Part shown: positions 10,161 to 56,339 of the stretch, piece after piece
Position numbering within the stretch: position 1 is the first letter of the stretch
Layout: each line of letters opens with the position of its first letter
Source of the DNA: Apostichopus japonicus
Lineage: Eukaryota > Echinodermata > Holothuroidea > Aspidochirotida > Stichopodidae
Length of the DNA stretch: 64,000 nt
NCBI RefSeq assembly: GCF_037975245.1
Contig: NC_092572.1
Span: 7,827,501-7,891,500 of the forward strand
Direction of reading: 5' to 3'
Notes under the pieces: generated by a model
The model's input: only the letters and a program-made list of their open reading frames with translations
Told to the model about the DNA's origin: nothing
Databases searched by the model: none
Made by a program: the position numbers and the translations under genes

Positions 10161-10200
10161 CCGTTTCAACTATATTCATTTATATAATTGTTCTTTTCAG

Positions 10201-10542
10201 TGTTTTTGAGCATTTCAAGTTCCCCAAAGAACAAGATTAAAGTTGAGGCGATTACAGATTCTATAGTGATGGCAAAACTACACGAAAATGTATGTCTAAA
10301 GTGTCCTGTCTTGTTTTATGAGAATACAGGGTTAATATGGAGACTGGGATTTAATCAATCGTATTTATTTAAAGGTGAAGCTAGAACTTACGACAACAGG
10401 AATTTTCCTTTGACAATAAACGTGTGTGAGTCGATGCACTACGCACTGGGACTACTCAACGTCGCAATTGGTGTCAATGATGTAAGGTATACGTGTTGGA
10501 GAAAGAATCAACTGATATCTTCATTTGTGGTTCATATCCAAG
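10201..10542 (+). CDS. Ig-like domain 1 exon, receptor copy A
   Basis: A 342-nt phase 1-1 exon between TTTTCAG and AGGTAAAT. It has an Ig V-like pattern: a B-strand cysteine (VCLKCP), a C-strand tryptophan (LIWRLG) and an F-strand YTCW. The equivalent in copy B (50,505-50,846) has the same length with scattered substitutions and an open frame. Confidence 0.8.
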
Positions 10543-10868
10543 GTAAATTTAAAGCATACTTTCAGTGGTTGCTAAACAAATATAGCTATTTTTCAGCAAT
10601 AAATTTTCAAATAAGCTAATCATTTATATTTATCAGAGTTTATTTAATCAATTTCCTTGTGCGGTAGAACTTTGACTATAAATGTATACAATTGGGCAAC
10701 AATTGAGCTTTGTGTTAAGAAATTATCACATTTCTAGCCAATTCCTTACATAAATTAAAGCACTTGATTCCTTTCCTATCAAGGACATATCTTTAGAGAT
10801 AACAATATAGTTCTAAGGGTGCCCCTCATTATTAACACATTCCATGTTTTCCTTCTTATCAATTATAG

Positions 10869-11242
10869 TAACACCAACAATTGAAATTGTTGGGGAAAGC
10901 GTGGTTGTGAATACGGATACTAGCAGGACACTTTCGGCTATTGAGGGTTCGGATGTTGCGATACAATGTGCTATTTTCAACACAATCCTACCGTTAAACG
11001 TGACGTGGTTACAGAACGGAATTTATAACAGAACTGACACTTTTACTGACGTCACGAAACTAGAGATGAAAAATTTGACATCAAATTTGAAGTTCGAAAT
11101 GAGAGTCAATATTCAAAATTTCACATGTAAAGTTAATGGCAGATATGTTGTAAACCAAGAGAGTGAAATTATAATTCACATCCAAAATCCTAAGTCCAAT
11201 ACGACAGACGACACATCAGATAATAATTTCGTTCATTTGTGA
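10869..11242 (+). CDS. Ig-like domain 2 exon with read-through end, receptor copy A
   Basis: Acceptor TTATAG, then an Ig-like domain with B-strand AIQC, WLQNG and F-strand FTCKV. The expected donor after 11,219 is lost (AT instead of GT). Continuing in frame reaches a TGA at 11,240-11,242 after about seven extra codons. Exons 1, 2 and this read-through exon total 771 nt, a 256-residue secreted protein with two Ig domains and no membrane anchor. Whether it is expressed cannot be told from sequence. Confidence 0.65.
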
Positions 11243-19632: not shown

Positions 19633-20149
19633 TTACATTTCTTTTGGAAAAAATTCATCTTCCCATTTTCCTTTCTTTGGGTTGAATTTTGGTACACTCA
19701 TGTTAGAAGGCGATTTCTTCTTACATTTATATACTAAAAAGGTAGAGAAGAGAGAAGAAGCATAAGTTAATACAATGAACGCAACGATTCTTTGCTATAA
19801 AATATCAACTGCAAGAACTTATACAAAGTATGTTATTAGTATGAACAGCTCCACACATAAATGCACTTTATCGTGAACCGAAAATAACGAAATTTAATGG
19901 AGAGTTGGGTTAATACATATGTTAAAAGTGAGTGAGAAACATTTCATAAAAAATGGAAAAAAAAACGCAAAAACTGAACCAACTACCAATGTACACATAA
20001 TATTGTTTCTATATCTTGTTATTGTATGTTATCCAAAAAAATCGTATTCAAAATATCACTCACTTTTCATGTCCAATCCCTTCAAAGCTGATTCCACTGT
20101 CTGCTTGGCTGCTCCTTTTAATTCGTCCGGTACCAAACATTTTACGAAC
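19633..20149 (-). CDS. C-terminal exons of Ig-NACHT receptor
   Basis: Exon 20149-20064 (86 nt) encodes FVKCLVPDELKGAAKQTVES and on to GLDMK. Exon 19733-19633 (101 nt) encodes a basic tail with VPKFNPKKGKWE and the stop. Both recur in copy B with identical lengths (63,295-63,210 and 62,865-62,765) and open frames. An alternative end is a TGA a few bases beyond the first donor. Confidence 0.7.
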
Positions 20150-23100
20150 CTTCATTAGAGATTATAAAGAAATAAATGTAAAATAGTTAATGTATATCTA
20201 TATTTATAAAAAAATAAAAGTCATAATTTATCAACATAACGAAATATAACACTAATCACATCTTACAGATGATTATAACGTAGTTAATGTCAAACATTCT
20301 TACTGTAGGATTTCTGGACAATTTTTATTTGCAAGGCTGGTGATGATTGATACGAATTGGTCTTTGTTGATGCTCATTTCCAGAAATATCAGGATTTTTA
20401 GTGAGGGCATTGTTATTTCTTTAATAAAGTCAATCGCGCACTCTTCTCTGAAAGTCATTACTTTCACTCTCACCTGTTGAAAGACAAGTAATTAAAGAGA
20501 CGTTAACATTAAGAACGTCATATATTTCCATATTGAATAACCCAACCAACATCATAAATATGTAACAATTTCCACTAATTGAGGCATATCACATTAATAA
20601 GTGTCTTTACAGTTAACTGAAATGGATTTTAGTTAAAACAAAATGATCCATTAAATACCGGTACCGTATAGTATTTCAGGATTTTATATTTGTTTTATAC
20701 ATGTATCAGGTCATAGCAAAGGTAATATAAAGAACTCTCATTTTGTAGAGAAATATGTTAATTAGATATTATAATTATGGTGGGCAATCATCCGGTTGAT
20801 AAAACCAGCTTAGGAATCATTCAGACAAGTTGAACATACAAATTCAAAAGTGAAATAATCCATTTTTTTTCATAAAATAAATTGAATGGATTTCCACTAC
20901 TTACATCGGAAGCATTGCAAACATCGCAGAAATCTGTTAAAGCAACTCTGTGGCGTTTCCTGTCAAGATTAAATATGTTAATGATCATTTTGCTACCCAG
21001 TTTACCCGCTTCATCGTTCATGCCGTTGATAATTGTTCGTTTCTTCTCGAGATTACTCATTTCATAAATACAGTCGATCAAATTGTTCCACATTTTCTGT
21101 TCCTTCAGGAGAGATTTTACGGCTTTATCCAATCTAGCATGATCCATGCCGAACATAAACTGTAATAACCTGACCGTTGCATTGTCTGCACTCTTTTTTA
21201 TAAATTCATCTATCCACGCCCATTCTTTATCACATTCTGGCACATACTGAGCAGCTAGAAATTCCTGAAAGAATTCATGATAAAACATACTTCCAGCATA
21301 GGACGAAAAAGCAAGTTCTTCTATTTGACTTCCTCCGCTTCCTACCTTCTTTGAATACTTGAGAAACCCTACGGCTAAGGCAAGTTCGGTGTCTTTTTTC
21401 CCAAGTTTATTGTTCCAATATTCGCGTTTACCCAATGAAAGGCTCATTTTGTTTTCAAATGCTATTTTACCAAGTCTAGCTTCCAGACTCTTAATATCTT
21501 CTTGAATGGACTGATTATTAACTTTCTGCACGTATTGGGATTCCAAACAAGTTATCACTAATCTTAGTATTGTTGTCAGTTTGTTAACATTCACCTCTTT
21601 ATATTTCCCTGATGGATCTATTATTCTGCATGTAATTATATGAACAATCATAATCAGCAGAAGGGGTGTTTCAGAAAAATTCTGAGAAATTTCGTTTAAT
21701 TCCATACATTCAGTAACTTTTTTTGAAAGTATTTCTAAAGTATCACAAGCTTCCGGGTTCTGCCCGTCGTTTCGTGGAACAGTGTTATCTTTCTGCTCTG
21801 ATTCTCTTTGCTTTACCTCGTGATGAGCAGCGGGAATTAACATTATTGTTACATCATCCAACACCTCGTCAGCTTTAATGTTACTTTCATTTGCTTCATT
21901 TTTGCCATCTTCTGTAAAAATGTCCTCGTCTTTTTTTTCTTCGTTTTGAAATTTTTCCACATCAACTGTTTTGGTTTGCTCCGTTATGTCTTGTTCTTTC
22001 TCTTCCGAGGTTTGTTTATTTTCTCCGTTAAACTCATTTATGTTTTTATCATTCTTTTTCCTATTCATCGGATTTTCATACTTTACATTTTCGGCATTGT
22101 TACATCCTCCATCTGTCACCGGCCGGCTGTCGGTATTTGTCGTTTTTATTTCAATCGTCTCTTCGTTGTTTGAATCCGATTTGGTTTGTTGTGTGGCGTC
22201 TAACTTAGATTCTTTCATCTTTGATTCGGGGATCAAGGTGAGTTGGGGTATTGCTTGTGATTTAAAGTAATATTTGCAGGTTTTATGAATATACTCATTG
22301 ATTTGAGAATTACTGAAACCATTCAAATTTACCTTTGAATATGGTAGGGCAAATGACGCCTTCATGTCATCAACTTCACGGGACGTTACCCAAACTTTGA
22401 TCTTTTTAAACTTAACAGTGTTGATTTTATTTTCGAGTAAATTTTCGACCGTTAGATTAGCATCATTTTCACCCTCCTCTTGAAGGAGATTGACACGTTC
22501 TTCTTTATCGTTAGTAGGATTCTCAGGAGATGTATTGGTACTAATCGTAGACATCGATAGCTCATCAAGCCCATCTAAGAGTACTTGAAACTCAAAATTC
22601 ATAAATATTTTAACAATATCGTCTACCGTCAAATCGATTCCAGCAGGCATCATTTCTTTGACAAGTTCGGAAAGAATCATGGAGGGATCAACCTCTTTAA
22701 GGTGAATATATATTAGTATAGTTTCCCTGAATTTTTTCTTTTTGTCAGTTTTCGTTGATATTATCTTTGATACCCAATCGCTAACCAGGTGCTGAGTGTA
22801 GGTTGTTTTCCCGTAACCTAAGTCTGCTATAATGAAGACCCGATTATTATCGAAATTAAACTCCTGTGTAGACATAATGTCGCTAGCGTGATGGCTGACG
22901 TCACCGTTCACGTTAGTGAGGGTGCACTGGCATGTAGTGTAAAGGGCATGTATCGGTATTGGTTCACCCCACGGTAGCGGCTTGATGAAGCCAAATTTCC
23001 CGTAGTACTTCATTAGCCCCTCCACTAAAGTATTTCTCATCTCTAAAGAAAAAAATAAATATATTAATGACTATTATGACATTATAGCAAGGAATGTTTT

Positions 23101-26100
23101 CAATGAGCAAGATATTTGCATATTTACATTTTGCATTAAAACTTGAGTATTACAGGCAGGGATGTCATCAGCAATAAACATAAAACTTTTATGTCATGAA
23201 CGCAATATGTATGATATATGTATTGATGATGCACTATCTTTCGTTAAATGAATGTAATTCATTTCTTACAAATAGCAATCTCCTTCATTTATTTTCATAT
23301 TTCTATGAACCTCCTTTTTGCAATATTAGGCTACAGCAGCAAACTGGTCTTTCTCCTTTTCCAGTTTTAAAGATCGACTAGGATGTTTTTGTTTTTTGCT
23401 TATTCACACATGTTACTGAATGTGTACACTTTACTAAAATCGTACCTCATAACGGAGACTGTGAGTTATTATATCAATACATTTTTACAGCAGTCGCGTC
23501 AAGTCTTTTTGCTTTGGAATCATAATGTTGAGGATGAAAAATTATATCGTACCTTCGGGTGATTTTTTCTTCGGTTTTGGTTTCGTATGTTTGGTCTGCA
23601 TTTCCTGATATAAGAACAGATATGAAATATATTGAAACAAATGGATAAATGAGACCACATTGTGGACAAAGGATATGAAGTTATAAAGATGTAACGTCCT
23701 TCTTACCGTGGATGGATCTGGAGTTGTCTCTTTAGTCGTATCTAAATCAACAAAAACAAAAATAATAAAAATCTGGTCAGTTCAATTTTTGTGGTTTGAT
23801 ATATAATGTCTGTTGTTAATATACATAATTATTTAATGCACCTTTGTAAAATGCGTTGTTTCTTATATGATTAAATAAGGGGTAAATCAACGGTCTACCA
23901 TGCAGCTAAGGCAGCATAATGCTCCAACAACTGTATAACGCAAGCGATGCACGAGTTCGTAGGTCGCATACATCCAGCAATAGCGTTACACCTTCGTTCA
24001 TTCATACAACACACTCAATAATCAATAACATCAATTTTCATCTACAAATGTTGCAATTTCTTGTAAACTTTAAAGGGGAAAAAACAACAATGTGTCCAAA
24101 CGGTGCAAAGAAGTTCTCTACTTATATAATAGTTAAGTCTCAAAACAAATTAGATGCAGAAGTAAAATAACAAGAATAACAGAAATATGCTATAGTGTAT
24201 GTAGTGCACAAACAACACCGCATTATACAATGAAATCAGCCTGGATAAGACCCAATGTAACTGTATGAACTTGCAGTGGCGGCAAAAGAAATGGCAAGTT
24301 TGGGGGTGGCAAGGAACAGTTGGGGGGAGGGGGAGGGATTTGAAAATACAAAAAGGGTACCTGAATAAAGTGCAAATCACAAGAAAATTCATCCGTTACG
24401 ATAATTTAAATTGATGAATATTTGCGACCGATTCACAACGACTAGCTGAGCAATGTTTCGAGAGAAACAAAGGAGAAAAAAAAATGAAACCTTTCTTTAT
24501 GATTACAATTGTGCACAGTTTCTACCTGCGAGTGCATGACCCTCAAAAGCTGCAGCACTATTAGATACTTCTTGTTCGCCCTTGTAGAGATTATGGAGCG
24601 CAAAAAGAAAAATATGTTTGAAAGTATGCTTGAAATATTCTAGCATTCTTGAGATAAATATAATCTGTTGTGACACCAACTAACATCGTTCCTTTCTTCT
24701 ATAAAGAAATTGTGATGCATAAAAGTTTGCAGTTGCCAACAAAGAACCTGCTACTTATTTGGGAGTTGCAACGATAATGGTTCTCTATGTTGTTGGTATG
24801 GTCGGAATATTGAACGTTATTAGGTCATTTCAAAACACCATACTTATTCTTACCATTTCTTCGGGCCCAAAAATTTGCGTTACCTCTTTTGCCATACAAA
24901 CAGCAAGCAATGAGGACGAGTATTAAAACAAAGAAAATTATAATTCCAATAACGACAAAGGCCCAGGCGACTTGACCTTTAGGGCTACTCGTGGGTTCCA
25001 TTGAAGGAGGCTCTTTGCAGGCTTCTGAAACGACATAATCAAGACAACGAAGATTGTACATGTCAGGTTACACAGTCTTGTATATGGATAGCGTAACATA
25101 TCTGAGAGCTATGCCTTTCCTGTGTTGTCGGCCAAAATTGAGATGTTATCATAAACACGCTTTAAATGTAAAGTATAACATCCTCCCCATACTGGTTTGT
25201 GCGCTGTCGCAATTACAGTTATCATTAGCCTTTTCCTCTGTATACCTGAAAGAATAACACTTTTATTGTTGTGAGTCACAACCCCTGGTTTCACACCTAT
25301 TATCATATTGCGATTTCAAATTATTTTGTCTATAGGTTTGCTTTGCAAGGACTTATAATTTCACTTTTGTTAAGGGTATACGTTTTGCCCTAATTGTGGA
25401 TATAGTAAAACAAAACAGTGATGCATTTTCTTACTAGCACAGATGTCTACCTGATTTGTGCAACTTTATGGCCACTTAATACCATCAAAACATAACTATA
25501 CATATAGCTATGCATTATGTTCATATCCCTCCGTTCTACATTGTCCTTCTGGTATGTTCAAAATGTGTACGTAAATCAATTCAACAGTAAAAACTAAGTC
25601 TTGATGAAGCTTTGGAATCTTCATATTACTTCTGTTCAATCAACGGACAAATTATAAACTGTCGTGTTACCTGTATGTATCCTTACAGTGCTAGAGTAAG
25701 TATCAAGGAGAGAAAGAAATGGAAAGTCTGACAAGGAAGCGATGCATCTGAAAGTAGCATCTGCTCCACAATCAGGTGTTGTGTATTCAATGGTTTTCCC
25801 AGTGTACCATCTGTCACCCATTTCTTTATGAGTTTGCTCTTCTTTAGTGAAGCTCACTCCAGACTGGTTAGTTACAATCCAGTCTACGTCCATCATTGGT
25901 CGAGAGCCACTCACATAACAAGTCAATGATCCGGATGTCGTAACGTTCACTTGACATCCAGTACAGGTCAAACCACAAGCATCAATCAGTGGGCAAGGAG
26001 GATCGGGTCGACCTGTCAGGATAAAACGTTAAAGATATTTACTCAGTGTTGTTGACGAGAGTGAAAATTTGTTTTTCAATTGATAAACCAATATATTAAT

Positions 26101-27086
26101 ATGACTGGATTCAAAGTGTTACAAGTGCATCGCTAACTAAATATTAATATTAAAAAAAGGTTATGTTTATTACTGTAAATCAAAAGCGCCGTGTTTGAGG
26201 TATCTTGTTCAAAGTTGTCAAAGTAAGCAGTCAGCGTATAGCTGCTTTCATGTTGTAACTGGCTATTAACGATTCTAAGAGATCCATTGATGGTTAACTC
26301 AAATTCCCCTTTGCGGTATTCGCTGCCACTTGATATGCCATCTGCGAGTGATAACAAAGGAGCGGTGCTCGTTGTTAATCCTTTGTACCAATACAAGTCG
26401 TAGTTGGAACCTAAAACGTAGCATGGAAGCTCCACTGACTTTCCCATTTCTGCAAAACACTTGGACTGACACTGAACACTACTTGCGTCTGTCAAGAAAA
26501 CATAATATTCCATATATCTCTATTTACATATTAACGGAATGAGCCTCGGTGTTTTTAAAACAATTATTTGATATATGGTTATTCAATAGTATCATATACA
26601 AGGCAAGAGACAGTAAAGATTGATTAAACAAACGGTAATCTGCAACTATTAAAACATGGACTTGTTGCGTTCAGCATATAACTGCTGTATTTACGTTTTT
26701 GCATACATTAATATGGACATATCATATACCATTCTGAATATTTTCCGATAGTGTCTAAAATAATTTTGAATTTTAAAAACAAGCATCAGTTATGCAGAAG
26801 CCATTTTAAGAGACACGGAAATGTAATATTGGTGAACACAAAGACGGAGTTTATTAAGACTGGGGATTAATTTTACATTCAGAAGCCTCTACCCGTCTTT
26901 TAATTCTCCTACTTGGATTATTTAAAAAAAAAAATCCCCTACTTTGAAATCTTGTGCATGCCACTGATTACTGATTTATGATAACAATTGAAAAAAATTT
27001 GTCTTACCCACAACATTCATACATGACATGATTACAACCAAGGCTGCAACGCACAAAATAATATATCTCCGTATCAAATCCATCAT
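19633..27086 (-). CDS. Ig-Ig-TM-NACHT-LRR membrane receptor (10 exons, intact)
   Basis: Exons in transcript order: 27086-27008, 26488-26174, 26012-25671, 25024-24854, 23741-23707, 23604-23553, 23042-20905, 20473-20304, 20149-20064 and 19733-19633. All junctions are GT-AG, phases agree, and the sum is 3,489 nt (1,162 codons plus stop). Order: signal peptide, two Ig-like domains, a transmembrane helix near VVIGIIIFFVLILVLIACC, basic juxtamembrane exons, NACHT (P-loop ADLGYGKTT about 404-412, Walker B FQVLLDGLDELS about 483-494, sensor-1-like VTSRE about 550), an LRR-like exon and a basic tail. NACHT ATPases (STAND family) normally act as cytosolic switches that oligomerise after ligand sensing. 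Here the sensor is predicted to be extracellular and the switch cytoplasmic. No death-fold (CARD, PYD, Death) domain is seen. It is convergent with the pseudokinase receptor gene. Exon choice is by eye; transcript data are needed for certainty. Confidence 0.85.
20304..20473 (-). CDS. LRR-like exon of Ig-NACHT receptor
   Basis: A 170-nt exon between CAACAG and GTAAGA, containing SLKILIFLEMSI and DQFVSIITSL, which fits one degenerate NLR-type leucine-rich repeat. Copy B keeps the exon at 63,446-63,615 with equal length and an open frame, so it has stayed under coding constraint or diverged recently. Confidence 0.7.
20905..23042 (-). CDS. NACHT NTPase exon of Ig-NACHT receptor
   Basis: One 2,138-nt exon. 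After an N-terminal helix pair comes a P-loop (ADLGYGKTT; first glycine of the usual motif is Ala), Walker B with LLDGLDEL, and sensor-1-like VTSRE. There follows a charged low-complexity insert of roughly 190 residues rich in Lys, Glu, Asp and Asn, then the winged-helix-like segment with ETPLLL and the NLR motif FFQEFLAAQYV. Hydrolysis-related residues are kept, so ATP binding is likely. The end at 20,905 is set by a GTAAGT donor; reading on adds about 28 codons to a stop. Confidence 0.85.
23553..23741 (-). CDS. Two small juxtamembrane exons of Ig-NACHT receptor
   Basis: Exon 23741-23707 (35 nt) adds TTKETTPDPST; exon 23604-23553 (52 nt) adds a lysine-rich segment KHTKPKPKKKSPE. Both splice in frame and lead into the NACHT exon. 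The same two exons with splice sites survive, broken, in the relic at 8,505-8,690, which supports them as real exons. Confidence 0.7.
24854..25024 (-). CDS. Transmembrane exon of Ig-NACHT receptor
   Basis: A 171-nt phase 1-1 exon with a short stalk, about 23 strongly hydrophobic residues and a basic stop-transfer run (YGKRGNANFWARR). The donor ATG-GTAAGA fits consensus; reading past it would stop after nine more codons. The charge pattern predicts the NACHT side is cytoplasmic. Confidence 0.8.
25671..26012 (-). CDS. Ig-like domain 2 exon of Ig-NACHT receptor
   Basis: A 342-nt phase 1-1 exon: cysteine-rich start (CPLIDACGLTCTGC), B strand LTCYVSG, C-strand VDWIV, F strand ATFRCIAS. Two N-glycosylation sequons are visible (NVTT, NQSG). 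It matches an Ig C2/I-type fold. Confidence 0.8.
26174..26488 (-). CDS. Ig-like domain 1 exon of Ig-NACHT receptor
   Basis: A 315-nt phase 1-1 exon with an Ig V-like pattern: LPCYV (B strand), LYWYKG (C strand) and a late SYTLTAYF strand in which the usual F-strand cysteine is replaced. Extra cysteines lie at the start (VQCQSKC). Ectodomain, ligand unknown. Confidence 0.75.
27008..27086 (-). CDS. Signal-peptide exon of Ig-NACHT receptor
   Basis: Two adjacent ATGs, then basic residues and a hydrophobic core (IILCVAALVVIMSC). The exon ends in phase 1 at GTAAGA. The frame joins the Ig1 exon to give DASSVQC. An out-of-frame upstream ATG lies near 27,115; the hydrophobic reading favours the start at 27,086. 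Confidence 0.75.
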
Positions 27087-27344
27087 GTTCTTGAAGTATC
27101 AGGCGATCACTGTGCATCTAGAAGGTAACAATTTAAATGGTAGTTAGACAATTAAAATAGTTTACCTACATATTCAAATAAGCATGGAAAATATATTTGA
27201 TGTACAAGTAGTCGTCGGTAAATGAATAAAAGGAATTCGTTCCTGTCCGTATTCTCTTTATGTGTTTCAAAGTTTCAGTGACAGTTTCTAATAAACTAAT
27301 ATTATAGGCCACATGTTGGGAATTACTGCAAACTTAAAAGTAAT
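27087..27344 (-). other. 5' flank of the Ig-NACHT gene
   Basis: Holds the presumed 5' UTR and promoter. A CTTCTAG acceptor-like site near 27,117 suggests a further non-coding upstream exon. Less than 300 bp farther out a Gypsy fragment begins, so much of the native promoter may have been replaced. Confidence 0.35.
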
Positions 27345-28470
27345 TTGTTTCAAAGGACTGTAGGAAACCCAAGCCGGATCATCGGGGAAAGAGACACAGT
27401 AACTTTGGGAGGGAGGCTATTGCGGAAGCTGAAAGGGTTGAGGAAACGGTGGCCGCCGGCGAAAGTATTTTGGCTGAATATGGGGAAGCAGGTCAAGTCA
27501 AACTGGAGGCGGGCGCGGTTAAAGCCAGGGACGTGGGCGTGCCAGTAAGCGTAGGTTACGTAGGAGAACACAATGTCGAGGTGGTGAGGGATACCGGATG
27601 TAACACAGTAATAATTAGTAGGAAATTTGTGGGAAAGTCGGAGTTCACAGGGCAAGTACGACCATTGAAGTTGCTGGACAGCACAAAGCGGTGGCTTCCT
27701 GCTGCTAGAATTAAGATCGACACACCCTATTTCGTCGGATAGGTAAATGCGTTGGTGGTAGACAGCCCCTCTCACGATCTGATTATCGGGAACATAGAAG
27801 GAGCTAGGGATGCAAACAATCCAGATCCATGCCGGCAGCCATCAACAGTTAGGGAAGTGGAAGCGTTAGGGGGAGCTGTAGAGACGCGCGCACAGAAGAT
27901 AAGAAAGGAACGTCCGTAACAGCGGCTTAAATGTAAAGGGGCAGTCGGCCCTGTCATCGATAGTAAGGAGTTGTCTAAGGCTCAGAATGATGAGCAAGAA
28001 TTTGCTAAGTTTTACAAGTTGACAAAGAACGGGGAGGTAAGAGTATCGCGAAGGGGTAGTGAGGTAAAGTACGAAGTTTCTAAGGGGATACTGTTGAGGA
28101 AATTCAAAAGTGCCAAAGTTGAAAATGGGAGAGAATTTAATCACATGATTGTTCCAAAACTTCTTCGTGACAGTGTCATGAGCGTAGCGCACGACGCTCC
28201 CTTCAGGTCATCTAGGGGCAAAGAAAACCGCTGATAAGGTGACGAGAAGCCTCTATTGGCCGGGTGTTCAGCGCGACGTTAAGCTGTTCTGCGTTTCTTG
28301 CGACATTTGTCAAAGAACTGTGTCCAATGGATCTGTACCTAGGGTCCCCCTGGGGAAAATGCCTCTTATTGATACACCTTTTCATAGAGTCGCGATAGAC
28401 TTAGTAGCGCCCCTCGCTCCGATAGCTGATCGCAGAAATAGATATATTCTCACACTGGACCCGCGACAAT
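27345..28470 (+). mobile_element. Truncated Gypsy-type retrotransposon pol fragment
   Basis: Reading through stops and shifts, there is an aspartic protease with the active-site DTGC and a downstream LIIGNIEGAR segment, a linker ending TRAQ, then the integrase zinc-binding region (LYWPGVQRDVKLF with CDICQRT) and the first strand of the integrase core (RVAIDLVAP). It ends abruptly after RNRYILTL. Several stops break it, and no reverse transcriptase, RNase H or LTRs are found. Protease directly followed by integrase fits lineages with integrase before RT (Gmr1-like), or an internal deletion. Described as a dead relic only. Confidence 0.75.
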
Positions 28471-30848
28471 GTGTGTGTCTGCGTGTCTTAAAGTTTATTT
28501 TTTTCCTATCAATGTATTACTGCTTGAACAGTACTTGTTTAACTACGATATTATTTCGCAGCAACTCCTCTACATCAAGGTACCGTTAATATTTTCCCTA
28601 TATTTGAATATGACGTATGTACTTAATGTCACTCAGACATAATTAGGTCTTCTTATGGTACTTAAGTTGAAGATCATTTATTTGCTTATCAGTTGTCTAA
28701 TTAAATATGTATGTTTATGGCTTCATCCTGCCTAAGTTCTGTCAACCACTGCTGCGCCTAAAGAAAATTCTTCTCTCTAGCATTGGAAAGTGTAAGCTAT
28801 ATGATATCTGTCCTTTGACCACATTTATTGGCAAAGATTGAAGAACTCATGGACAAAGATAACTTAATTCGTAACATTTATGAGGGACATATAACGAAAT
28901 ATTGGAAGTTTAGTAGTTGGACCGTGCTGAATGAAATATAGTAACTTTAATGGTATACTAAATATAGATCTGATGTAACGTATGCGAAGTCAGAGAAATG
29001 ACGAATTTAAGTGCAAATGGTGTAGCTGTTATATGTAATTTAAGAAATTATGTCGTCATCCTAAATAACTCATTTTGGTATTTCAATCAAATTCATGATC
29101 CTGTGACTACCATTCATTCAATATCGTAAGCTGCGTAACATGCATAACTTTTCAGTTTCTACTTAAACAGGAACGTCCATCTATTGCATGGATGGCTCTG
29201 GAGACAATTTCCATGCAGGAATATTATCAAGGGTAACGTTGCATGGGAATATGCTGTGCTATTATGGAGTTATTTTCTTTTAATAATAACGATACTCTAC
29301 ATATAACTGTTCCTAGTATATTAATGAATGCGGTGGTTCGGTTATTTTGCTATGTAATCGATTCCGGAGAATTGATATGAAAGAAAAACATATTTTTGTT
29401 ATATTTACTCTCCAAGTTGTTTATCTGAAATCATTGTTTGTATTATATTAACTTGTGTTGGGGGACTTTCAAGATATGATCACTGTATAAATTATGTTGG
29501 GCTCTACAGTATTTACAATACTTCTAATATCAGTTAACGTGATAATTAGTATCCTCTTGACATTTACACACACTTGTATTAGGACAAAGGTCAATGGCAA
29601 CTGATAACATGAAAGCTATATATTCTCATGTAGAAGATCACATTTTAATTTTTTTTTTTAAATTATCATATGAAGGAGAAATGGGAATAAATTAACAAGA
29701 CAAACATCTAACTTGATTTCTTTATCTTTAACTGAAATCCCATTAGCAAGAGTAAGTGCCTCTGAGGTTGACAAACAAATCAGAGTGGGATTTATCTGAC
29801 CACAATCTCTTTGTTGTCCTTGAGCTGTATAGAATTTATTCATTTTAACTTTGAACAATTTGTAGCGTTGATAAAGATTTAAGAAACGTTTCTTTGCCTT
29901 CTTTTGCACAACCCTTGCCTGCCTTAAGTGAAACAAAAAGTAGCTAATGGTAGTCGTGGTCGATCTTCTGACAAGATATTCATTTCATATATGTAATGTC
30001 AATTTACACTTGAAACAGTGGAACGGAAAGAGGCATATCATAGCGGTATGATTTCAAACCGATATTTATGAGGGGTAGTAAAGTGCCCCCCCCCACTCTT
30101 TCACCCTCCCACCACAACCCCATATCATGATATCATAAATGATTTTGCTGCAGAGTCAGCTACCCCGAAAATTGTAAAGAGCAAACTTAAAAAGGAAACT
30201 TAACGTAATTATAGTATGTCGATAAATTATTGAACGTGGTGTTACAGATAGTTAGGTCCTTTTAGCCGACTAGTCATTAGTATTACCGTTTTCTTCACAG
30301 GTATGTTATTATGCTATCTTCTTGGAGTACCAGAAAAGGGAGCGACCTAAAATTAGTACGATAGCAACAAATATGGTGTCAAAATCAAAACAAGTAAGAA
30401 TGACAGGTAGTACTACTACAGCCCCTTAGTATAGGTATAATTAGTTAACGGGTTCAGACATGAAATCTGAAAGCTTTAAATATGTATAGTAGGATAATAA
30501 ATTTACCAGGAACAATATATATTTATACCAGTGTTACCAACAAGGAAATGTAGAGATGCATTTTGCTTTCTGTGACTCACCAATGACTTTAATTAAGGAT
30601 AAAGATTGCAATAAGAAACATGTAATGCAAAACTTCTATCCTATCAAGGGACGTGCAGTGCACATTTAACAGGAAAGAAAGTCAACCAGAGATATGTCGT
30701 TCATTTTGAAATGTATATTGGGGTAAGGTTAATATTCGCGGGCTCAATGTCAAGTTGGCTCTGGTTCTCGAAGCCTCTGACAACGACAGGTTGTTAAACA
30801 TTATCGGAAATTATGCCTTGGTTCGAAGTAAGAACGTTAACGCATACG
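28471..30848. other. Gene-free region
   Basis: AT-rich sequence with no recognised gene. The longest minus-strand ORF (29,936-29,658, 92 codons) has no recognisable motif. A C run occurs near 30,087. This stretch belongs to neither duplicated copy. Confidence 0.45.
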
Positions 30849-49788: not shown

Positions 49789-50504
49789 ATGGCCGTATTG
49801 AGTAACATTCTGAACAGCGATGGTTTACCGGCAATACTAATAGGTAAGAATTTTATTTCTGAAGGTTATATACTAACAAAATGCTATCGGTAAACAATTT
49901 GTGGCTACTAGCTTTAAAAAAGTAATAACAATAAGTGAATAACAAATTACCTCTTTCTAGTTTCAAAATATGGCAACTTAACATCTGCTTGGCATTATCT
50001 GTTTTCCCGGGAGAATTTAAAGTAACATGTAAAGAAACACACAACATTAACCGTTATAGTTAAATAATTCAGGATGAAGTCACTTTATTTCAGAATGTAA
50101 AAATGTTAAACGAAATGTGGTGAGTTATGGAGTTAGATAATCAATGCGGTTTTCTGTTTGCTTAAGTTTACATTTGGTATATAATAATCACAGAATATCA
50201 ACTCGTGATAGTTCTGCATGATTCTCTGTTCCGAACACTGTAATTTTTCTTGATACTCCATATAAATTTGTGCAGGAAAATGTAATTTAACAAACTAGCA
50301 TGTCTCGATGAAAGTGACAAATCCTACAGTTGAATGACAACCTTTCTTACTGGCTTCGAAGAACTGCAAATGCGGCCCGTCTTCAAAGCCCAATTGGTTA
50401 AGGCGACTACGTGTAGAGTTGGAGGCTGAAGATTTTGCACTGTTCTGTAATTTCTAACTCATTACCGTTTCAATTAAATCTATTTATATAATTGTTCTTT
50501 TCAG

Positions 50505-50846
50505 TGTTCTTGAGCATTTCAGGTTCCCCAAAGAACAAGACTAATGCTGAGGCGACTACAGATTCTATAGTGATGGCAAAACTACACGAAAATGTATGTC
50601 TTAAATGTCCTGTCTTGTTTTATGAGAATACAGGGTTAATATGGAGACTTGGATTTAACCAATCGTATTTATTTAGAGGTGAAGCAAGAACTTACGACAG
50701 CAGGGATTTTCCTTTGACGATAAACGAGTGTGATTCGATGCACTACGCACTGGGAGTACTCAACGTCACAATTGGTGTCAATGATGTAAGGTATACGTGT
50801 TGGAGAAAGGATCAACTGATATCTTCATTTGTGGTTCATGTCCAAG
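50505..50846 (+). CDS. Ig-like domain 1 exon, receptor copy B
   Basis: A 342-nt phase 1-1 exon, open, matching 10,201-10,542. It keeps VCLKCP, LIWRLG and YTCW. Several replacements relative to copy A, most visible near the start and in the middle. Confidence 0.75.
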
Positions 50847-53189
50847 GTAAATTTTAAACATACTTTTAGTGGTTGCTAAACAAATATAGCTTTTTTCAAC
50901 AATAAATGTCAAATAAACTAATCATTGATATTTATCAGGGTTTATTTTAATCATGATGATGACTATTTCCTTGAAGTTCGAAATGAAAGTCAATATTCAA
51001 AATTTCACGTGCAAAGTTAATGGCAGATATGTAGTCAACCAAGAGAGTGAAATTTTAATTCACATCCAAAATCCAAACTCATTTACACCAGACGACACAT
51101 CAGGTAATCATTTCGTTCATTTGTGACTTCCATTTAATTATAGTTTGGACTCATAACGAGATACCTCAGTGAAACGTTATTGAAGCTCAGTAAAGACTCT
51201 TCACTGTCTCAGACAAGCAAATGATCTAGTTGTTTGTTCGTTCTTTAAATCAGTGGTGGTTTGGATCACGAAGAGAATATTAAATAACAATTGAAAACCG
51301 GTCGTTCATTATTTACAGGAATATGTAATTAATGAAGTGCCCTTAATACAAGCCAAAGCAAATTCTAGAAATCTTTTTCTTTACTCATTTAATCTATACA
51401 GATACTGATGAAGGCAAAATGGGCGTATATTATTTTATCGTACCAATCCTCTTCACTATATCGACGTTGACGAGTTTACTGATGTTTTATAAAGTTCAAA
51501 GTACGTGAAAATATTTTTGCTGGTATTGCTAGTGGAGTAATATATTTTTACTGACTTAAAACAAATTACAAACTCTGAAACGTCACTGAAAACGTATTAA
51601 TTTAGTGGGGCAAACGAAGCTTTTGAAGTGATTTGGCACAAAATCTACAAAATTGAGACTATATTTGCATATTTCACGTGACCAATAATTATAAGATCAT
51701 CAAATTGCTGGAGTGTCTATTCCCTGTCACCCTTCTAGCAAGTGGTAATTTTTCGAAGGAGCTGTTAGTTACGTTTTGAGAATGTAAGTAGCAATTAGCA
51801 TTGAAGCCCACATGACTGAGATAAATTTCAAAATAAAAACAATGTTTCAAGAGCAACCCTCTTCTGTGAATTTTGTGTATCCGAAAATAGTTAATAGCTA
51901 TAAAATTGAAACTAAGTCTCTGAAAACGAATAAACATTCTTATTGGAATTAAACAAGTCAATATTTAAGAAAAGAAGAGGAAATGCCGAGATATTTTAGT
52001 TCTGCAAAATCAAAATCAAAACAATGGAATAGAAAAAGGAAAAGCAAACACAAAGATAAAACTTTAGCCTATTTTAAAATCAGGAGCATAACGTGATGTC
52101 CTTTTCTTGTCTGTGTTGTGACAGAATTGGTATATGTGATTATATTTCACACGCTGTATTTTTTTTAGGGCTGAGATCGCAGAGGATGGGCAATACAGGG
52201 AGAACAAAGTAAGTCCCTTCATCTTCCTTATATGAGCAGTAAACACATATTCAAATTAACATGAAATTACCAAATGAAGTTATACTAAGCTCGTATAATT
52301 TGTAAAATTTGGGATTTGTGTCCACATTTATGCTTCTTTCTTCCCAAAAAGAGTTCCTTTTTTTGTCTTCCTATTATCGCATATCTAAGAATTATATTTT
52401 CTTTTCTCCGTTTGAGGTACTGAAGTTTTCATAAAACCTATTTGTAATAGTCAATATTTAGTTAATTTAATTTTTTTCAAGCGTGACAACAACAACATTT
52501 GAAACAATCAACATACATGTGAGTGAAGAAGTACAATATGAATCTCCAGACGATATGGGTGGTGGTAAGTTCTGGTTTTCTTTCTAAAACCTGCTGATTT
52601 ATCAATTCCGTATGATCAGAGTTGTGGGAAGGTCGATGAAAACTATAATTCATTGTTACAAAACTAAATTGATGACTAAGAAAGTTATTGTAATAAAAAA
52701 TGATTGTTAAATATGTGTTGTAACGAGTAATATGCAATATTGGTAAATTCCTAATCTGTACACAGAGTACTTAAGAGATTGTGGGTTTTGACTGGCGTCC
52801 CTAGACAATTAAAAAGGCAATATAGGGAACGAAAACAACCAATATTTTGACAGTTCAGATGAGCATTGTTTAAAACTGAGGTCACTGTTTCTACTACCGT
52901 TCTATCCATAAGTTTCTGCACTCTATTCCATTTTCTCTTGGCTTTTCAAAGAGTTCTACTTCTATGGAAACAACACTGTGTTAAATCGAGGTGACATTAT
53001 ACTGACAAGCTCTATTCCTTGTACGGGACGTATGAAGAGATGGATAGCATCAACGAAAGGAAAAGATAGATCGCTTATAGTAGCAAATACTTTGTGTGGT
53101 AAGTTAATGTATGATGATAGCTTCCTGATTAATTCACTATACTCTAACTACTGTGTAATTAAGTTTATATAATGCCTGCATTACTAATA

Positions 53190-53710: not shown

Positions 53711-55401
53711 CGGAAAATTGGGGAAATAAAAAATCTTCCCTTATCTTCTCTGTTAGTTACCTTGGATGTGTCTTCGTTATACACAAATATCCCTAACGAA
53801 GAGGGCATTTCGGCCTGCACAAAAGCATTCAAACCGAAACGTGGCAAAACCCCACGAAGAAAGAATTGGCCGAATTAATGCAACTTATCTTGACCAACAA
53901 TAATCTGGTATTTGGCAACAAACACTACCTCCAAATTCATGGCACCGCAATGGGTACCAAAATGGCACCGTCTTTTGCCAACATCTTTATGGGAAACCTC
54001 GAGAAAGAATTTTTATCTCGACAAAACTTGAAACCACACACGTGGTTACGTTACATTGACGATATCTTTATGATATGGACCCATGGTGAGGCAAATCTAA
54101 AACTCTTCATTGATGACATAAACTCGTTTCATCACACTATCAAATTCACTGCTGATTTTTCTGGACTTGGCGTTCACTTTCTGGACACCACCGTGACCCT
54201 ACAAAATGGTTCACTCAAAACAGACTTGTTCAATAAACCCACGAACAAGCACAACTACCTCTTACCAAGCAGTTGCCATCCACGTCACTGTACCAGAAAT
54301 ATTCCGTACAGTCAAGCGTTGCGCATTCGACGCATTTGCTCCTCTGAAGTCGATTTTGATTCACGCACTAAAGAACTGTCACAACACCTCCTAAACAGAC
54401 AGTATTTTCGGGGTACTATTGAAAATGCCATCAAAAAGGCTAAAAGCAAACCCCGTACCGAAACATTGACGTACAAAACTCGTCAAACCAGTTCCAAAAG
54501 GGTACCATTGGTTACTGAATTCCACCCTGGTCTCCCACCACTGGCTAATATCATTCAGAAGAATTTTCACCTACTTCAAGGCACCGAACGCCTGAAATCA
54601 GTATTCCCAGAATTACCTGTCATCGCTTTTAAAAGACCCAGCAACCTACGGGATATCCTAGCTCGGGCATCCTTTCGGGATGACACCCCATTAGGGGAAA
54701 GCAACACAGAAACTACAGGATCATCGCCCTGTACACAAAATTGCAAAACGTGCTTACTTGTCGATTCGACCGGGGCCTTTCAGAGCAACCAAACCAAACG
54801 CACGTTCCAAATTCGGCACAAAATTAACTGCCTATCCAAAAATGTAATTTACCTCATCTACTGTAATATTTGTAACTTACAATACATTGGAGAGTCAAAA
54901 AACACTCTTAGAATGAGAATGACACAACATAGATCGGCGATCAAAACAAAAAAGATCTACCAACCTGTTGCAAATCACTTCAATCTCCAAAATCATTCAA
55001 TTGAGAATTTGCGTGTCATTGCCATTGACCACAACGATTCTTGGACAGATAAATCTAGGAAAGCGAAAGAAAATTTCTGGGAACTAAACCTAAAGACCAC
55101 GGCACCATTCGGTTTAAACATCAGAAACGATTTGCCGTCCCAGATAAACCAAAACAATTCCTTTACAATTACGACGGAATCGGATTAAAATAATCCGAAT
55201 TTCTAAAACTTCTGCTCAGTTCAGCAGAAATCAGTAAGCCGCTTTGCCCTTACAACCATGCCGACATCTCCTCTATAAAACAGTTTCAATTCCTGCTACT
55301 CCTTGTCACTTTCGGTGATCATGCACTGAAGAAGAGCTAGTTTTGCTCGAAAGCTCTGCAAAAACCATACATTGGCTGTTTTACTTCCAATCACTTACCT
55401 A
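53711..55401 (+). mobile_element. 5'-truncated Penelope-like element in intron 7
   Basis: Copy A has no insertion here (about 13,990). The element begins inside its reverse transcriptase and ends just before a TA microsatellite (55,402-55,470), a usual PLE target or by-product. Its 3' end holds an inverted pair, AGAGCTAGTTTTGCTCGAAAGCTCT-like, typical of these elements. Sense orientation with respect to the host gene. Confidence 0.8.
53717..55188 (+). CDS. Penelope-like reverse transcriptase with GIY-YIG endonuclease
   Basis: First part (to about 53,860) reads [14 protein letters not shown], then a frameshift leads into a 440-codon ORF starting at 53,866. RT motifs: [14 protein letters not shown] and the catalytic RYIDDIF. 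A linker follows, then a GIY-YIG endonuclease with [18 protein letters not shown] and a conserved RMTQHR. PLE proteins normally have a longer N-terminal region, missing here. The element is retro-inactive through truncation and the frameshift. Confidence 0.85.
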
Positions 55402-55470: not shown

Positions 55471-56339
55471 CTGTTATTGCAGATAACTCAGCAAACGAAG
55501 ACTGGCTTCAAATCAGATTGCTGGCTGAACATCTCAGACATATTCCGAAGCACAGAAATGTAGTAGAAATTGTGGCGGCTGACACAGTACTAAGTAGGCA
55601 ATAAATTGCTTAAATAGTTTACATAAAATATGCACCTGTCACTGAGATTTGCTTTATCAACAATGTATTTTATTTCTTTATCTGATTTCATGTTTGGAAA
55701 AAAATTGAATTGCTCGATATGATATATTCTTTTTCCACTTTCTATGATCCAAACATTGTAGTTCCTTACTACATTTACACGGAATACATCACAAATGGTA
55801 CTTTAAGAGATGTCCTTTGTAAAGCGAAATACGACGATGTCTATTCCAAGATTATATACATGCAGGGACTAAGTAGATCCGCTCAATCAACCGATGCCCT
55901 ACGGATTGGATCGTTTTTATTGGAACCTCTGAAGGCCCTATTCTTTCTTGAATCAATAGACGTCAGTAACAGTGTCATACGTAACCAACAGACTAACTAG
56001 AGTAAGATGCATATGTGAATGGTTCTGACGTCGCTTCGAACTTCCAACTGTTTTGTGACATATCTAACCCAAAGATTTCAGGATGAGCTATCAATGATAA
56101 ATAAGTCTATCTTTATGAAAAGTACTAACCACTTAAGCACACTTAAATACAATTTAATTTTACAGTGTGATCATCCTGCTATTTGTTCGAGAAAGGTTCT
56201 TTTAACACCTAACATGGTGTGCAAACTGTACGACTTCAACCTGAGATCAGCTACGAAGGAAATGCTCTCAAATATCAAGTTTGAGGTGAGGGAAAAATGT
56301 TTTGGTTTACGTTTTAATTGTTAATTTGTGTCAAATGCA

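Follow-up and report, generated by a model that had tools for sequence, protein, structure and literature searches.

Membrane receptors that join an immunoglobulin (Ig) ectodomain to a NACHT domain have been published from sea cucumbers. According to the available text of the reports, AjNLRC4 (MN607598) of Apostichopus japonicus is an Ig-NACHT membrane receptor that responds to infection; its Ig part binds microbes, its NACHT part contacts actin, and dimerisation, internalisation and engulfment are described (PMC8699970). The internalised receptor has been connected with caspase-1 and MLKL (PMC11932488). Its ectodomain is given as 482 amino acids, with a second transmembrane (TM) segment at 776-795 (PMC8699970). 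Another A. japonicus protein, AjNLR-new (PIK48001.1; 1197 amino acids, 136 kDa, isoelectric point (pI) 5.34), is placed by its authors, with some bench data, Ig inside and NACHT outside (PMC13133943). NLRs of Chiridota heheva likewise carry NACHT and an Ig V-set in one holothurian protein, with topology undiscussed in the available text (PMC8913654). The Ig-TM-NACHT design is therefore already known, in A. japonicus from AjNLRC4 and AjNLR-new. Here we analyse a gene of this design on the minus strand of a 64,000-nucleotide window (the whole stretch analysed, NC_092572.1 positions 7,827,501 to 7,891,500), whose design a first-pass annotation did not recognise as a described family; AjNLRC4 and AjNLR-new contradict that view.

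The window gene resembles AjNLRC4 in its Ig ectodomain, TM helix and C-terminal NACHT domain without CARD or LRR. AjNLRC4 differs in its longer ectodomain, its chromosome (C16) and its reported second TM segment, against only a weakly hydrophobic segment in exon E8 of the window gene (exons E1-E11; Table 1). The two are predicted to be distant relatives (28% over 96 amino acids in the NACHT exon, 27% over 89 amino acids in the first Ig exon). AjNLR-new, likened here by description and not by sequence, shares a hydrophobic N-terminus, two Ig domains, a TM segment, a NACHT domain and similar size and pI, and differs in the topology that its authors assign. Membrane-bound NLRs of sponges also combine NACHT with a predicted TM segment; their Ig combinations are named with TIR, and Ig-TM-NACHT goes unmentioned in the available text (PMC12909245).

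The product of the window gene is probably a type I membrane receptor in the Ig-TM-NACHT class, and the array around the gene probably diversifies as a typed 5' part on a homogenised chassis. What we observe in silico is a conserved exon chain, a TM helix with a constant charge pattern, conserved nucleotide-binding motifs and two histories within one gene; the first-pass observation is thereby confirmed and its interpretation partly supported. New here are three old V types on a near-uniform receptor body within one tandem array. At title and abstract level, with subscription literature mostly outside the search, no description of exchange or conversion of V types among the Ig-NACHT genes of holothurians was found.

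Results

Gene model and tandem array

The gene forms a single open frame running from 27086 to 19633 in 11 candidate exons. The predicted product has 1167 amino acids (132.1 kDa, pI 5.37) with the doubtful exon E5, and 1152 amino acids from 10 exons without it; the first-pass annotation had given ten in-phase exons and 1,162 codons. All introns (10/10) are GT-AG, the phases are compatible and the joined frame holds no internal stop codon. Leader, V-set Ig domain, second Ig-like domain, TM helix, short linker exons, NACHT exon and three tail exons follow one another in the protein. Pfam places V-set and NACHT above cut-off and the second Ig-like domain below it (best C1-set, 0.0068).

A genome search with the NACHT exon gave at least 69 matches, at least 67 of them on C12, the window's chromosome. 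The closest form a minus-strand tandem array at 7.55-8.14 Mb (about 0.6 Mb), of which 16 stretches (L001-L016) were searched exon by exon. The genome searches scored the best 60 of 717, 150 of 331 and 106 of 487 candidates, and all counts are lower bounds.

V-exon types and the receptor body

The V exon (E2) occurs in three types interleaved along the chromosome of this one array: type A (window gene, L001, L004, L007, L008, L009), type B1 (L003, L006, L010, L011) and type B2 (L005, L012, L013). Pairwise comparison of 12 genes (L011 and L014 left out) gave synonymous differences (pS) of 0.44-0.84 in E2 versus 0.09-0.23 in E3 for the 45 between-type pairs. E2 exceeded E3 in all 45 of these pairs and in 4 of the 21 within-type pairs. 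Between A and B, mean synonymous divergence (dS) is 0.19 in E3 and 0.21 in E8, with E2 saturated.

The change in likeness falls at the edge of E3. A block of DNA homology that includes E3 begins between 26 bases upstream and 1 base inside the exon in 42/42 A-B pairs and 4-29 bases upstream in 12/12 B1-B2 pairs, while in 24/24 within-type pairs it begins 129-2238 bases upstream. The intron preceding E3 is unalignable between A and B. One kind of leader exon was found in 5/6 A genes (window gene, L001, L004, L008 and L009, with none found in L007), and all three B2 genes carry another leader of their own. On the 3' side, comparison of L004 (A) with L006 (B1) gives 16 differences over 1761 positions in the first part of E8, 33 over 339 in E3 and 139 over 312 in E2, and identity drops on both flanks of the near-identical E8 tract. 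The E2 tree supports A (100/99), B2 (100/99) and B1 (92/96); in the E8 tree, built from 11 rows, a single clade is rejected for A (p 2e-75) and, with two rows, for B1 (p 5e-68). In the trees and in the ratios of nonsynonymous to synonymous divergence (dN/dS), L002, L015 and L016 are absent for every exon; L011 is also absent for E3, L007 and L011 for E8 (stops or frame breaks), and L003 for E4, E8 and E9, which lie outside its stretch.

Read from the genome, an old typed 5' module (the V exon with the intron 3' of it, plus the leader where one was found) sits on a shared Ig2-TM-NACHT-tail chassis, and the chassis is most likely kept alike across types by gene conversion or unequal crossing-over. 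Several results weigh against this account. A long conversion-like tract was seen just once, and the second-longest run in E8 measures 248 nucleotides. The types were defined from E2 itself, and their unity in the E2 tree is therefore by construction. B2 stays together in the E8 tree (94/93), and the E3 tree rejects only B1 (p 0.03), not A (p 0.12) or B2 (p 0.15). No B1 leader was found in L003, L006, L010 or L011, with L006 and L010 also searched further upstream.

The V exons with their introns may instead have been transplanted between otherwise young duplicates, with no homogenisation of the chassis. This alternative is a serious one, if rather doubtful. The homology edge at the E3 acceptor in every A-B pair, the interleaving of types along the chromosome and the separate leader of B2 genes all suit it. 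However, the L004/L006 tract is internal to the chassis and identity declines to either side of it, the pattern expected of conversion, and A-B divergence in E2 (pS 0.77) comes near the value measured against the outlying L014 (0.81), so that each V type may be as old as the founders of the array. Tentatively, the array could be an invertebrate germline V-cassette system in which ancient, diverged V modules are re-paired, by conversion or crossing-over at the edge of the Ig2 exon, with a shared Ig2-TM-NACHT body. Selection alone, without exchange or conversion, was rejected as a highly implausible cause of V divergence: although within type A the dN/dS of E2 (0.62) exceeds that of E3 (0.29) and that of E8 (0.48), with E2 values of 0.35-0.62 within types all below 1, silent sites differ too in the same 45 pairs and the intron before E3 cannot be aligned between A and B.

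We infer that V-type diversification serves immune recognition. Ig ectodomains serve adhesion in many proteins; it is nonetheless unlikely that the receptor is directed at self or at development (adhesion, allorecognition) and not at microbes, given the microbe binding and infection response reported for AjNLRC4 in the available text (PMC8699970), and given that an expanded array with typed V domains would be suited to recognising varied ligands.

The zebrafish NLR-B30.2 genes offer a parallel in which, according to the available text, gene conversion treats NACHT and the recognition module differently (PMC4852459). Those proteins are cytosolic with C-terminal LRR and B30.2, whereas the varying part of the window gene is the outer V domain; there the NACHT groups are separate and B30.2 is common across groups, while here the V types are separate and NACHT is common. 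The likeness is one of process, not of family membership.

Orientation in the membrane

Hydropathy (19-residue mean) marks two strong segments, the leader (2.57) and the TM helix (3.55), and a weak third one (1.70) at residue 797 within E8. The first is probably a cleaved leader; the third may be the counterpart of the second TM segment reported for AjNLRC4. Beside the TM helix encoded by E4, the flank towards the NACHT is charged +2 or +3 in all 12 sequences, against -1 to +1 for the flank towards the Ig part. Among the sequences compared, E2 holds at least one sequon in 14/14 and E3 at least two in 13/13, and all seven E3 cysteines are conserved in at least 12 of 13 sequences. These features favour a predicted orientation with Ig outside and NACHT inside.

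Part of the evidence runs the other way. The 263 residues of the ectodomain contain 3 sequons and 13 cysteines versus 7 and 16 in the 879 residues of the other side, and E8 cysteines are conserved as well (9/12), so sequons and cysteines alone do not decide topology. The inverse arrangement, Ig inside and NACHT outside, has been claimed for AjNLR-new from a TMHMM prediction, binding of the recombinant NACHT part to coelomocyte surfaces and antibody blocking (PMC13133943, available text). The window product comes near AjNLR-new in size and pI. For the window gene we consider this arrangement improbable: its first hydrophobic segment sits in a separate short leader exon, positive charge follows the second in every sequence, sequons recur in both Ig exons, and the P-loop is conserved although an extracellular domain would hardly need one. 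TM programs without a leader model can misread a signal peptide as a TM helix. The first-pass placement of Ig outside and NACHT inside within one gene is thus backed by the paralog exon chain, the leader exon and the charge pattern.

NACHT exon and tail

The NACHT match in E8 scores 31.2 bits against a Pfam cut-off of 26.7. Two motifs, ADLGYGKTT and VLLDGLDELS, which we take to be the P-loop and the Walker B region, are invariant in 11/11 aligned E8 sequences, including that of L014 at 45% identity. E8 dN/dS is about 0.5 in array pairs, and the K/E/N-rich insert of the exon is long and varies in length among paralogs. A profile built from nine wider relatives, AjNLRC4 included, matched, at E up to 0.1, 42 distinct chains whose structure is known, best of all NLRP3 (6.2e-15). 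All matched chains are named NLR or NAIP-type except two rows labelled 'Uncharacterized protein', and the domain is accordingly predicted to be a NACHT of NLR type. Weighing against this assignment, neither the window NACHT exon alone nor a profile of the close family alone matched a solved structure in the PDB search. NCBIfam gave nothing above cut-off, and an AlphaFold model of E8 alone had a mean predicted local distance difference test score (pLDDT) of 32 and was not used.

The first-pass annotation had called E9 LRR-like. No Pfam match was obtained for this exon at E up to 10; the label is therefore unsupported, and an LRR domain in E9 was rejected. Pfam scans of E2, E3, E4, E8 and E9 (the short E1, E5-E7, E10 and E11 lying outside the scan) found no CARD, LRR, death-fold or B30.2 domain, in agreement with the earlier remark that a death-fold domain is absent. 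The Ig and TM exons occupy the N-terminal place where a bona fide NLR has its death-fold domain. Genome-wide, at least 106 NACHT matches lie above the Pfam cut-off (106 of 487 candidates scored), many of them on C16, C12 and C7.

One gene or two

Exon order is conserved among the array paralogs and splice dinucleotides recur at homologous positions. The tallies take in L001-L014; L015 and L016, whose divergent exons are partly projected off splice sites, are left out. Acceptor AG and donor GT were found, respectively, in 13/13 and 12/13 paralogs for E2, 12/13 and 13/13 for E3, 11/12 and 10/12 for E4 (the 12 include a false partial match, L002, and L012 has a GC donor), 12/13 and 13/13 for E8, and 13/13 and 13/13 for E9. 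The weak exons were detected in fewer loci, E6 in 2 (AG 1, GT 2) and E7 in 9 (AG 5, GT 8). Two paralogs appear to be broken, L007, in which E8 is interrupted by a stop and E3 lacks its AG, and L011, with frame breaks in E3 and E8.

Merging the 69 NACHT-exon matches with 50 C12 matches of a second search (150 scored) yielded 43 NACHT places. A V exon lies 2-6 kb upstream on the same strand in 22/43, while an Ig match on either strand within 9 kb downstream was counted in 2/43. In the close array a V exon lies upstream in 12 of 17 NACHT places, and four of the five misses are fragments with several stops. The fifth miss is the NACHT of L002; its V and Ig2 exons appear to be those at L003, because L024, which lies between them, contains E4 and E7 matches. 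The more distant L021, missed by the second search, has V-like, Ig-like, TM and NACHT frames in that order, as read by eye. Several V exons per gene were also considered, and no sign of them was seen in the stretches examined: 15 loci have an E2 match at E < 1e-3, and in every one of them that match is single.

It might be argued that an Ig-TM receptor gene and a neighbouring NACHT gene were merged by eye, since the second codon of E8 is ATG and the gene model is a prediction from genomic sequence. That ATG is not universal, most aligned E8 exons having K or R at the place, and published proteins of the same species combine both parts. Exon order, phases and splice sites recur along the 0.6-Mb array, and two separate genes are therefore very improbable; this conservation and the upstream V-exon counts led us to discard them.

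AjNLRC4 locus and surroundings of the gene

AjNLRC4 itself is very probably encoded by L017 on C16, because both of its ectodomain primers match there with the NACHT exon 4 kb on. With up to 3 mismatches allowed, the forward primer has a single genomic place, which lies on C16 and shows 1 mismatch; the reverse primer matches L017 with 1 mismatch (search confined to L017 and L018), and the NACHT match begins 4.15 kb past the forward primer. By these matches the genome is also very probably that of A. japonicus. L017 follows the same exon logic as the window gene, with V-like and Ig exons, a TM exon and a single NACHT exon. The primers listed for the NACHT part (AjNLRC4-IN; PMC8699970, Table 1) each have one exact genomic place with up to 3 mismatches allowed, L018:2165 (C14:1474164) and L019:751 (C14:1477150), facing each other about 3 kb apart. 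Neither matches L017 within 6 mismatches. The C14 gene that holds them encodes a ZZ finger and UBA_5 and is presumably p62/sequestosome-1. This may be a mere table error; the placement bears on the reported actin-binding result, and care is needed with that step.

Repeat units make up the window (1-64000): of 17 direct-repeat families, 15 have copies 38-43 kb apart at 81-93% identity. Each unit seems to hold a second Ig-like gene on the plus strand, at 10188-11239 and 50492-50854, with Pfam matches below cut-off. Near the 5' end of the receptor gene, 27344-28586 (plus strand) contains fragments of retroelements, in which an integrase H2C2 zinc finger is matched at 1.5e-12. An open frame at 53797-55185 (plus strand) has reverse transcriptase and GIY-YIG domains, a pair that we take to be that of Penelope-like elements, and 56019-56321, further downstream, shows a weak tyrosine kinase likeness (E 0.01, below cut-off).

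Table 1. Candidate exons of the Ig-TM-NACHT gene, in window positions.
Exon	Position	Strand	Content	Evidence
E1	27008..27086	-	ATG and hydrophobic leader MMDLIRRYIILCVAALVVIMSCMNVV; phase-1 donor	Hydropathy; like leader in L001, L004, L008, L009
E2	26174..26488	-	V-set Ig, type A, phase 1-1	Pfam V-set 5.7e-8, above cut-off; splice sites conserved
E3	25671..26012	-	Second Ig-like, phase 1-1; shared chassis begins	Pfam below cut-off; splice sites conserved; homology edge
E4	24884..25024	-	Stalk, transmembrane helix, basic stop	Hydropathy 3.55; alike in 12/12 sequences
E5	24526..24570	-	Doubtful linker exon, 45 nt	Paralogs: AG 7/8, GT 4/8
E6	23707..23741	-	Linker exon, 35 nt	GT-AG and phase; 2 paralogs only, too short for search
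E7	23553..23604	-	Linker exon, lysine-rich	Frame and phase; 9 paralogs
E8	20905..23042	-	NACHT, then helical region; long K/E/N-rich insert	Pfam NACHT 2.3e-7; motifs invariant 11/11
E9	20304..20473	-	Tail exon (earlier 'LRR-like')	Conserved in paralogs; no Pfam match, E up to 10
E10	20064..20149	-	Tail exon	Paralogs: AG 8/9, GT 9/9
E11	19633..19733	-	Final coding exon, contains stop	Paralogs: AG 8/8

Discussion

In the action that we propose, the V-set domain would meet a ligand outside the cell, probably a microbial one, with the second Ig-like domain serving as a stalk. Clustering of receptors would then bring together, beneath the membrane, NACHT domains tethered by the lysine-rich linker, and their nucleotide-dependent assembly may start the output. 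For the relative AjNLRC4, engulfment and contact with caspase-1 are reported.

The published Ig-TM-NACHT design comes from two proteins, and the topologies reported for them are opposed. A tandem array whose exons can be read supplies independent evidence, from sequence, that the Ig part lies outside and the NACHT inside. It also shows receptor diversification at work, in that the sensing and the signalling exons of one gene differ in history. If the V-cassette reading is true, different recognition domains would feed the same NACHT switch. The array makes two ideas testable: that a NACHT domain can act as the cytoplasmic tail of a surface receptor, and that an animal without antibodies may vary recognition while sparing signalling.

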